Source of the DNA: Rufibacter roseolus
GTDB lineage: Bacteria > Bacteroidota > Bacteroidia > Cytophagales > Hymenobacteraceae
Reading direction: 5' to 3'
Assembly: GCF_017916365.1 (NCBI RefSeq)
Contig: NZ_JAFMSU010000001.1
Span: 1,426,001-1,490,000 of the forward strand
DNA length: 64,000 nucleotides
Numbering within the stretch: the first letter of the stretch is position 1; every line of letters starts with the position of its first letter. The notes under the pieces are model-generated. The model searched no databases. It had not been told where the DNA came from and saw nothing but the letters and a program-made list of their open reading frames with translations. Positions 41,169-45,858 of this stretch are shown piece by piece. The position numbers and the translations under genes were made by a program.

Positions 41169-41317
41169 TTTTGTTAAGTACTTTTATGGCTTTTGTGGAG
41201 AGAAACGTTGATGTAGATTAAGTACAATCTATGAATAACCTGGCCGATGGGGTTGCGTAAAACTGCTGGAATGAGCTAAGCTACTTGGCCACAGATGTTC
41301 TACTTAAGAAACAGGTT

Positions 41318-42130
41318 ATGAAAAAGTATATGTTAATGTTTATGGCGGCAGGGGCCTTTGCTTTCTCTTCTTGCCGTGAAGACGCCGGTACCTCTACAGA
41401 AACAAACGAAAACGACAGCGATACCCCAGACAACGCCTCCGGCGAGACCACCGACTCTTCTACGGTTTATAACTATGAGCGAGAGTCAAGAGATAGAGCC
41501 AACCGCATGTCCTCCCAAATCTCCCAGGACCTGAAACTAGACGCAGCCGCCCAGGCCCGCATCAGAACGGTGATGTATAACCGCGCCCGCATGATGAACG
41601 AGCTGGAGACCCGCTACAGCAGCACAAACCAAAGTGCCGGCCTTGCCGCAGACAGCAGCACCATGAGCGAAGACATGATGGTAGAAGACGATAACATGAT
41701 GGACAGCGGTGCCGCCGTGCAGACCTCCAGTACCATGGAAGTGACCGGCTACCCTGATGATTATCCTACTCAATATTACAGCGAGATTGAGTCTATCAAC
41801 TCCAATGTAGACATGGAGGTAAAAGGCTTCCTTACTCCAGAGCAGTTTAAGATGTACGAGGCCAACCGTCAAAAATATTACAGCACAGAGGCTAAATACA
41901 AAACCCAGGACGGCTCCAAGCTCAAAATTGACGGTGACGAGGCCAAGCTGAAAGCGGGTCAAGCCAAAATGAAGAGAGACGGAGATGAGTCAAAACTCAA
42001 AACCGAGACCACCAAAGTGAAAAAAGACGGTGATGAGTCTAAAATCAAGACCGATGCCGCCAAGATCAAGCGCGAGAAGGACGAGGTGAAATACAAGTCC
42101 GGTGACACTAAAATAAAACTGGAGAACTAA
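41318..42130 (+). CDS. Lipoprotein with C-terminal 16-residue Lys/Asp repeats
   Basis: A signal with lipobox (AFAFSSC, Cys near residue 18) begins the 270-residue protein. An acidic Thr/Ser-rich linker follows. The middle (about 48-190) is helical and resembles short DUF-type regions with LKLDAAAQARIRTVMYNRARM and EVKGFLTPEQFKMYEANRQKY. From Lys201 to the end there are about four and a half 16-residue repeats of the form KxKxDGDExKxKxxxx, for example KMKRDGDESKLKTETT. Alternating Lys and hydrophobic positions suggest stacked beta turns. I recognise no function; it may bind an acidic polymer or ions. The upstream in-frame start at 41285 lacks support. Confidence 0.85.
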   Translation: MKKYMLMFMAAGAFAFSSCREDAGTSTETNENDSDTPDNASGETTDSSTVYNYERESRDRANRMSSQISQDLKLDAAAQARIRTVMYNRARMMNELETRYSSTNQSAGLAADSSTMSEDMMVEDDNMMDSGAAVQTSSTMEVTGYPDDYPTQYYSEIESINSNVDMEVKGFLTPEQFKMYEANRQKYYSTEAKYKTQDGSKLKIDGDEAKLKAGQAKMKRDGDESKLKTETTKVKKDGDESKIKTDAAKIKREKDEVKYKSGDTKIKLEN

Positions 42131-44155: not shown

Positions 44156-45412
44156 GTGGTCCTCCTTCAGATTTCCCCAAATAATGCGGTAAGTTCTCCT
44201 GCAGGCACCCCTGGGCCCGATGGTCTGGTGTTGGTAGGGGATTTGATGGTGGTAACAGCCTACGTTCTGGTAGCAGGCACGCTTTTCTACCTGGCAATCC
44301 GGCAAAAAAACCAGGAACGGAAGGTAGTGCTGACGCTCTTCGGCGTCACTGCTTTAATGGGCGGGGCTTTGCACTCTCTCAACTTCTGGGGCGATGGCAA
44401 TGACGGAGGCTTGTTTCTGGTGCTAAGGCTGGTATTTGGCGTGATTGCCTTGGTAGCCACCGGTTTGCTGATCAAGGCCGTGCCGGGGCTTTTGGCCATT
44501 CCCAGCCCAGAGCAGTTGCAGAAGGCCAATGACGAGCTCAGGGAGCAGATAGCCGAGCGCGAACGAAGCCAGGCGGCCCTGCGCCAGGTGCAGCAGGACT
44601 TAGAGCAGCGGGTGCAGGAGCGCAGTGCCCGGGCCATCACCGCCACCCGCGAGCTGGAGCGTGAGGTGGAGAACCGCAAACGCGCCGAGAAGCAGCTTAT
44701 CTCCAAAAATTACGAGCTGGTCAAGAAAAACGCTGATCTGGATGATTTTGTCTACTATGCCTCCCGTGACCTCCGTGCCCCGGTACTCAACATCACCGGC
44801 CTGGTAGAAGCCCTAAAGGAGGAGTTGCCGCCGGATAACCCCGAGTTCAACCAGCTTTTCGCGCGCTTGGACGATTCCGTTTCCAGCATCCACCGCAAAC
44901 TGTACAACATCACAGAGGTGAGCCGTATCCAGCGGCCGGTGAAGGAGGAGGAACTGAGTATGGTTTCTTTTACGCAGGTGCTGGAGCTGGTGAGGGAAAG
45001 GCTGGCAGAGCCCCTTAGCATCGCGGAAGCGAACCTGCACACCGATTTCTCCGCCGCGCCCGAGGTGTACTTTTCCCGTGACAACCTCCTCAGCCTGCTC
45101 ACGAACCTTATCTCCAACGCCATTAAATTCCGCGATGCCCTGCGGCCGCTGCAAATTACCCTGTCCACCCGGCACCAGGACCACTACCTGGTTTTAACAG
45201 TGCAGGACAACGGCATGGGCATGGACTTAAGCCAGTACGGCCAGCATTTATTCTCATTGTTCCGCCGGTTCCATGACCACGTGGAGGGCAGCGGCGTAGG
45301 ATTGTATATTATTAAACGCATCATGGACAACAACCGCGGCAAAGTGGAGGTGGACAGCGTGTTGGGCGAAGGAACCACCTTCCAGCTGTATTTTGTGAAC
45401 CATGAACAATAG
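44156..45412 (+). CDS. Ethylene-receptor-like membrane histidine kinase lacking the phosphoacceptor His
   Basis: The 418-residue protein starts with GTG; no better start is seen. Three helices (about residues 23-47, 57-78, 86-112) align with the ETR1 ethylene-binding domain: Asp29, Tyr36 and His73 fall at the spacing of ETR1 Asp25, Tyr32 and His69, and the following AxPSPEQLxxANxEL linker is the one I recall from bacterial homologues. The copper Cys (ETR1 Cys65) is Gly69. A coiled coil leads to a HisKA-like region reading FVYYASRDLRAP, where Arg204 replaces the phosphorylated His. The ATPase domain is intact (N box NLISNAIKF, G1 DNGMGMD, G2 GSGVGLYI). It overlaps no gene and is followed 14 bases later by a response regulator. 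It is likely a sensor scaffold or allosteric partner. Confidence 0.88.
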   Translation: MVLLQISPNNAVSSPAGTPGPDGLVLVGDLMVVTAYVLVAGTLFYLAIRQKNQERKVVLTLFGVTALMGGALHSLNFWGDGNDGGLFLVLRLVFGVIALVATGLLIKAVPGLLAIPSPEQLQKANDELREQIAERERSQAALRQVQQDLEQRVQERSARAITATRELEREVENRKRAEKQLISKNYELVKKNADLDDFVYYASRDLRAPVLNITGLVEALKEELPPDNPEFNQLFARLDDSVSSIHRKLYNITEVSRIQRPVKEEELSMVSFTQVLELVRERLAEPLSIAEANLHTDFSAAPEVYFSRDNLLSLLTNLISNAIKFRDALRPLQITLSTRHQDHYLVLTVQDNGMGMDLSQYGQHLFSLFRRFHDHVEGSGVGLYIIKRIMDNNRGKVEVDSVLGEGTTFQLYFVNHEQ

Positions 45413-45426
45413 ACCGCACCAAGGAT

Positions 45427-45858
45427 ATGAAGAAACTGAAGGGCATCATGCTCGTCGATGACGATGATACAAACAACTTCCTGAACCAGCGTTTGCTGAG
45501 CCGGATGCAGATTACAGACAAAATCAAGGAGTTCCGCAATGGCAAACACGCCTGGGATTACCTCCACCAGTTAAGCGAAGGGAGCGTTGACACCGCCTCA
45601 GCGGATTACTTTAAGCCCTCGCTCATCCTGCTGGACATCAACATGCCCGTGATGAACGGCTTTGAGTTCCTGGGCATGTTTGAGCAACTGGACCCCGGTT
45701 TTCGTCAAGACATGGTGCTGGCCCTGCTTTCCACCTCAGAGCACAGCCAGGACACCGAGCGCGCCGCCGCCCAGAACATCGCCTACCTTACCAAGCCCTT
45801 GACGGCCCAGAAAGTACAGCACCTCCTGGATACCTATTTCCCTGAAACCGGCGCGTAA
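45427..45858 (+). CDS. Single-domain response regulator
   Basis: The 143-residue protein is one CheY-like receiver domain with no output domain. It has the acidic pocket MLVDDDDTNN, the phosphoacceptor Asp in LILLDINMPVMNGFEF, the switch Thr/Ser in LLSTSEHSQD and the Lys in YLTKPL, so it can be phosphorylated. It follows the histidine kinase by 14 bases and is surely co-transcribed. Because that kinase lacks its His, the phosphate may come from another kinase. The long insert after helix 2 (SEGSVDTASADYFK) is common in Bacteroidota receiver proteins of this kind. Confidence 0.92.
   Translation: MKKLKGIMLVDDDDTNNFLNQRLLSRMQITDKIKEFRNGKHAWDYLHQLSEGSVDTASADYFKPSLILLDINMPVMNGFEFLGMFEQLDPGFRQDMVLALLSTSEHSQDTERAAAQNIAYLTKPLTAQKVQHLLDTYFPETGA

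Follow-up and report, generated by a model that had tools for sequence, protein, structure and literature searches.

Results

A pseudo-histidine kinase gene is followed by a receiver gene

The window analysed here, 64,000 nucleotides of Rufibacter roseolus DNA, harbors a gene pair whose features all lie on the forward strand. The first gene (44156..45412, GTG start) encodes a 418-aa pseudo-histidine kinase composed of an ETR1_N domain, a coiled coil, a HisKA region and a HATPase_c domain. The open reading frame of a single-domain receiver (45427..45858) starts 14 bases downstream of it. In Pfam searches, PF25487 (ETR1_N) matched residues 25-115 of the kinase (positions 6-97 of the 97 in the profile, E 3.7e-9, 37.2 bits with a cut-off of 27), HisKA residues 195-260 (29.5 bits, cut-off 26.9) and HATPase_c residues 309-413 (E 7.5e-18, 65.4 bits, cut-off 26.4), and the receiver frame passed PF00072 (E 2.2e-13). 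Among the 25 matches listed for the kinase, no NCBIfam profile reached its curated cut-off.

An AlphaFold2 model of the kinase, for which 26 natural sequences served as input (mean pLDDT 79.8, pTM 0.51), contained three membrane helices, then an extended coiled coil and, after it, the kinase core. Helix 1 (residues 22-49, 44219..44302) carries Asp29, Tyr36 and Ala40, and helix 2 (residues 53-78, 44312..44389) carries His73 and Gly69, whose codon GGC (44360..44362) stands where outgroups have the copper Cys. Arg91 lies in helix 3 (residues 84-113, 44405..44494). The alignment to the letters of ETR1 is presumed, residue 40 being what we take to be the counterpart of Pro36 and residue 91 that of Lys91; the sequences from the sister genera bear the same signature. 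The AIPSPEQL linker and the coiled coil (residues 114-192, 44495..44731) lead to the DHp (HisKA) region (residues 193-262, 44732..44941), in which Arg204 (codon CGT, 44765..44767) replaces the phospho-acceptor His. In the HATPase_c ATP-binding domain (residues 300-416, 45053..45403) the N, G1 and G2 boxes are retained, and in the receiver Ser102, Lys123 and the phospho-acceptor Asp70 (codon GAC, 45634-45636) are intact. Coordinates, frame, Asp29, Tyr36, Gly69, His73 and Arg204 all agree with a previous sequence-only reading of this DNA, as does its statement that the ATP boxes and the Asp of the downstream receiver are kept.

The best PDB matches of the model were histidine kinase cores. When the membrane half was searched by sequence against the PDB, eight entries were matched (best E 0.0098), none of them a receptor, and its ETR1 fold therefore rests on Pfam and the three predicted helices rather than on a solved structure. 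Chain 4q20_B of DivL ranked sixth by E-value among the matches of the model. This is no evidence of special kinship, since the model had 347 PDB matches with E-values of at most 0.001 and DivL is just one HisKA core among them.

Both replacements are fixed in Rufibacter

The kinase gene is present in 15 of 16 Rufibacter genomes, the window genome included, and is missing in G137. The nearest protein of a named relative is that of Rufibacter hautae (90% identity), followed by that of Rufibacter sp. XAAS-G3-1 (73%). In the family, the N-terminal half was matched in 41 of 204 genomes, comprising the 15 of the genus, 12 with good sister-genus orthologues (L073-L084) and 14 outside the genus with weak matches (best E 3.4e-5). 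Position 204 was Arg in all 15 genus orthologues, while position 69 was Gly in 14, Ala in one and Cys in none. Hence the two losses claimed from the single sequence, of the copper Cys and of the phospho-acceptor His, hold throughout the genus; the point to be refined in that reading is position 29, which is Asp in two orthologues and Glu in the other 13. As all 15 orthologues carry both changes, chance is excluded and a sequencing error or an oddity of one genome was rejected; fixation in 15/15 together with low dN/dS argues against error and decay alike. Orthologues with normal Cys and His, which the sequence-only reading would have taken as a sign of error or decay, do occur, though solely outside the genus and as the ancestral state. 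We conclude that the protein is a pseudokinase, fixed in the genus, that arose from a kinase of the ethylene-receptor type.

In a tree of 103 sequences, the 15 genus sequences formed one clade (support 100/100; stem length 0.85 changes per column), and its nearest relatives were four sister-genus kinases (support 98/76, below the starred level). The sister-genus orthologues have the identical domain order, but, unlike the Rufibacter protein, they retain the Cys (12/12) and, where a kinase domain is present, the His (10/11, the exception being Asn in L075). All eight genus loci examined (L031, L032, L227-L232) share the gene order cysK, kinase, receiver, TauE-like gene. Six sister loci were compared with them, and the order recurs in three, two with His (L234, L235) and one with Asn (L236). 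Of the remainder, L233 has cysK, kinase and receiver, L238 has a truncated ETR1_N frame beside cysK, and L237 has the kinase only, without any neighbour from the window, so that cysK adjoins in five of the six (L233-L236, L238). Since sister genera have a canonical kinase at the same locus, both losses are best placed on the Rufibacter stem, as far as sequences can tell; their relative order cannot be told. Alignment, tree and synteny together show, at the level of sequence comparison, that an ordinary operon of ETR1_N histidine kinase and receiver lost Cys and His on this stem, after which the losses were fixed.

Two further observations concern the neighborhood. In G010, from another genus, the orthologue at the cysK locus consists of an ETR1_N frame of 218 aa that lacks the kinase part (L079, L189, L238), and the 12 kb examined there held no match to the receiver or the TauE-like gene. 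In the window, 41285-42130 encodes a protein whose central part is acidic and whose C-terminal part is built of repeated units such as KRDGDESKLK; it is also found at the locus in 8/8 genus loci and in G137.

The receiver is kept with the kinase

A receiver lies directly downstream of the kinase in all 15 genus genomes that have the kinase. Its acidic pocket, phospho-acceptor Asp70 and Lys123 are present in 15/15, and at position 102 ten orthologues have Thr and five have Ser. E35, R37, F85 and E105 are genus-specific (14 or 15 of 15; absent from eight sister receivers), Glu105 having been gained three residues past the active-site Ser/Thr. In G137 cysK adjoins the TauE-like gene; neither kinase nor receiver was found in 11 kb at this locus, and the best receiver of that genome is a 43% paralogue located elsewhere. 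This joint absence suggests that kinase and receiver form one unit. Outside the genus the pairing is looser, as no receiver lies directly downstream in four of 12 sister loci (L077, L078, L079, L081).

The membrane domain lacks the copper Cys and retains polar positions

In ETR1, copper binding is assigned to Asp25, Cys65 and His69 (PMC12643061). Asp25 is further predicted to hold His69 in place and to form a bond with Lys91, a residue that takes part in output (PMC11819568), and the ethylene-insensitive tomato mutant Nr carries Pro36Leu (PMC6727826). Among the 15 genus orthologues, His73 (at ETR1 His69) is invariant, position 29 (at Asp25) is acidic throughout (Glu in 13, Asp in the window genome and L059 only) and position 91 is basic throughout (Arg 12, Lys 3). 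Position 40 is Ala in 14 and Ser in one, and Pro in 11/11 sister sequences. Of the features of a Cu(I) ethylene receptor, the equivalents of His69 and of an acidic Asp25 are thus present and those of Cys65 and Pro36 are missing. The missing Cys means that the protein should not be called an ethylene receptor, and sensing of ethylene through Cu(I) in the manner of ETR1 is unlikely, judged from the residues present. With Asp/Glu29, His73 and Arg/Lys91 retained and the Cys gone, the polar positions have been kept without the Cys ligand.

A substitute copper ligand was sought and rejected. No position from 20 to 115 has Cys in six or more of the 15 genus orthologues, and Met68, which adjoins the lost Cys, is found in 12/15. 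The sequence-only reading had interpreted the two losses as a changed ligand and a non-phosphorylating role as partner or scaffold; the latter is still the best reading, while the former, for which nothing identifies a ligand, is conjectural. The Rufibacter membrane domain may sense no ligand.

The phospho-acceptor is lost from a conserved kinase core

Both domains of a HisKA sensor kinase, HisKA and HATPase_c, are present and the H-box acceptor His is absent, for which reason the protein is not to be called a functional histidine kinase. Ordinary autophosphorylation is excluded in HisKA kinases without an acceptor His, and by its sequence the Rufibacter protein should not autophosphorylate. 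The residue at +4 from the acceptor site is Gly (12) or Ala (3) in the 15 genus orthologues and Ser (6), Ala (4) or Val (1) in the 11 sister kinases, Thr and Asn being absent from both groups, so that only the loss of the His is genus-specific. Defined as present in 14 or 15 of 15 genus sequences and absent from the 11 sisters, the genus-specific changes of the DHp lie around the H box and in helix 2 (D197, Y201, R204, L211, V213 in 14/15, K248, L249, N251). Between residues 190 and 299, His246 is the one other His that at least five sequences carry. The N, G1 and G2 box residues N321, D351, G353, G355, G380 and G382 do not vary across the 26 aligned sequences from genus and sisters.

Among the kinases of this 5.5 Mb genome (30 loci of 52 kinase matches), His was read in 31 of 32 kinase rows and Arg in the window kinase only. 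The nine best paralogues are 37-45% identical to it over the kinase part, and the genome has intact paralogues whose DHp helix 1 is similar. One intact paralogue, L006, adjoins L192, the closest paralogue of the receiver.

Mean pairwise identity was compared between the 15 genus and 11 sister sequences. It was higher in the genus for the DHp (81.1 vs 57.7%), the ATP domain (75.2 vs 56.8%) and the receiver (77.1 vs 54.9%, eight sister receivers) and, reversed, lower for the membrane domain (56.1 vs 61.5%); because the clades differ in age, which partly confounds the contrast, this reversal is the informative part. Compared with the R. hautae orthologue, dN/dS was 0.083 for the membrane domain, 0.071 for the linker, 0.053 for the DHp and 0.088 for the ATP domain. 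The five remaining pairs gave values of up to 0.37 (membrane domain) and 0.11 (DHp), with synonymous sites near saturation in some pairs.

The double loss was found in Rufibacter only

PF25487 matches came from 86 of the 390 order genomes and 21 of the 395 phylum genomes, the phylum set taking in some genomes of the order set. After removal of duplicates and one broken copy, 106 ETR1_N domains from outside the genus were compared, 12 from the family search and the rest from the order search; two weak matches from the latter (L127, L128), in which the domain was not recovered, were left out. The copper site was Cys in 100 of these 106. The H-box column could be read in 85 (His 83, Asn 2), the others having a gap at the H box (L107, L129, L134) or no kinase in the same open frame (18). 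None of the 85 proteins in which both positions were readable had lost both Cys and His. The phylum set held 20 loci from outside the genus and thereby added 17; of these, 16 had Cys and His, and L226 had Asn at the Cys site and an unreadable H box.

Single losses were observed within the order. The Cys is replaced in L119 (Phe), L120 and L121 (Thr), L122 (Ser), L124 (Ile) and L125 (Val). Of these, L119, L120, L121, L124 and L125 retain the H-box His and occupy three places in the tree, and L122, one of the 18 without a kinase in the same frame, has its kinase match in the next frame. Asn replaces the H-box His with the copper Cys retained in L075/L190 (G009) and L135 (G504), which lie in different parts of the tree. 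Cys loss was therefore rejected as the cause of His loss: each change is found without the other outside the genus, five Cys-less proteins retaining His and L075 and L135 retaining Cys, and the two are not generally coupled.

Split receptors were a further observation at 12 loci (L097, L099, L101, L102, L104, L105, L106, L109, L112, L113, L114, L115), where a lone ETR1_N frame of 155-220 aa is followed, within about 15 bases of its end, by a second frame of 374-469 aa that matches a kinase profile in 12/12. The arrangement was absent in L091 and L189, 14 of the 18 kinase-less loci having been examined.

Discussion

The plant subfamily II receptors ETR2, ERS2 and EIN4 combine an ETR1_N domain with a degenerate histidine kinase and keep the copper Cys; they are a separate lineage with a degeneration different from that of the Rufibacter protein. 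SynEtr1 and AzoEtr1 (PMC11819568) share with the latter the three-helix ETR1_N domain, His at ETR1 His69, Asp or Glu at Asp25 and a basic residue at Lys91, but the Rufibacter protein has neither the Cys for Cu(I) nor a phospho-acceptor His. SynEtr1 signals via histidine kinase activity and a phosphorelay (PMC11819568). Caulobacter DivL, with Tyr550 in place of the His, binds DivK~P and lengthens its life, has neither kinase nor phosphatase activity and binds ATP weakly (PMC4211667). As in DivL, the H-box acceptor is replaced in the Rufibacter protein, the histidine kinase fold is kept and the partner is a single-domain receiver, and the model matches the DivL structure 4q20; whereas DivL has PAS sensors, Tyr and weak ATP binding, the Rufibacter protein has an ETR1_N sensor, Arg and conserved ATP boxes. 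Its Pfam matches, taken up to an E-value of 1, included no PAS domain, and with PAS sensors and the Tyr at the acceptor site both missing, the likeness to DivL is one of mode only.

We suggest that the Rufibacter protein probably signals by binding its receiver partner rather than by phosphorylating it, its most probable role being either that of a DivL-type receiver reader or that of one partner in a heterodimer. By analogy with DivL, it would be a lineage-specific, acceptor-less pseudokinase module that docks the receiver, keeps its ATP site and acts as a reader or sequesterer of the phosphorylated receiver, a reading on which we are evenly divided. The DHp surface, remodelled yet highly conserved, would keep docking the receiver, which another kinase would phosphorylate; the intact kinases of the genome make such a phosphate supply possible. 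The pseudokinase would then read or sequester the receiver, as DivL does with DivK~P, and the state of the receiver could be relayed through the coiled coil or handed on to a partner kinase. Conservation of the ATP site suggests that bound nucleotide may still set the conformation, or that it serves inside a heterodimer. A more detailed version, in which the DHp reads the phosphorylated receiver through an Arg204-Glu105 contact and the state travels from the inside outward via the coiled coil to a metal-free network of Asp/Glu29, His73 and Arg/Lys91, or to a partner kinase, is doubtful.

A rather unlikely alternative with some appeal is that the protein is one half of a heterodimer, its ATP domain phosphorylating the His of a canonical paralogue in trans, or tuning that paralogue, which would feed the receiver. 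The six invariant box residues (26/26) and the intact paralogues with similar DHp helix 1 in this genome would suit such a role, and conserved ATP boxes, in contrast to the weak ATP binding of DivL, fit a heterodimer partner at least as well. ChrS/HrrS offers a precedent, yet the truncated ChrS pseudokinase itself did not heterodimerise significantly in two-hybrid assays (PMC9491836), and nothing points to a particular partner kinase in Rufibacter. The conserved pairing of DHp and receiver would suit an enzyme that acts as a phosphatase only and dephosphorylates the receiver. The phosphatase reaction of HK853 uses H260 and T264, the activity of H260A being diminished (PMC5727384), and counterparts of both are absent in 15/15 genus orthologues (Arg204; Gly or Ala at +4), which makes canonical phosphatase activity unlikely. 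The missing Thr or Asn at +4 is shared with the 11 sister kinases and hence is no genus-specific loss; on balance we consider a phosphatase-only role very unlikely.

It is also highly improbable that Arg204 itself or another residue near the H box accepts the phosphate. Tyr201 is a conspicuous candidate, present in 15/15 genus and 0/11 sister sequences next to an intact ATP site, but His246 occurs in just nine of 15, and we know of no HisKA kinase with such an alternative acceptor. A gene decaying after ethylene sensing was lost is hardly credible: one genus genome (G137) has no copy and G010, of another genus, has the 218-aa ETR1_N frame only, but this is opposed by low dN/dS, 15 open frames and conservation of DHp, ATP domain and receiver.

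A literature search, weak since subscription journals lay mostly outside its scope, found no published report of a Rufibacter pseudokinase and no publication linking Rufibacter with a histidine kinase. Passages of PMC12189002, on bacterial signalling, name ethylene receptors in the title of a reference and nowhere else, and nine places in PMC13211072 mention no receptor. The gene pair offers a clean natural experiment, in one lineage, in which a two-component sensor has lost its known ligand site and its catalytic acceptor and yet persists next to its partner. Because sister genera have canonical orthologues at this locus for comparison, one can ask directly what a histidine kinase still does without phosphotransfer. 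The case bears on whether the reversed receiver sensing of DivL is more general, and on what becomes of ETR1-type membrane domains without the copper Cys.
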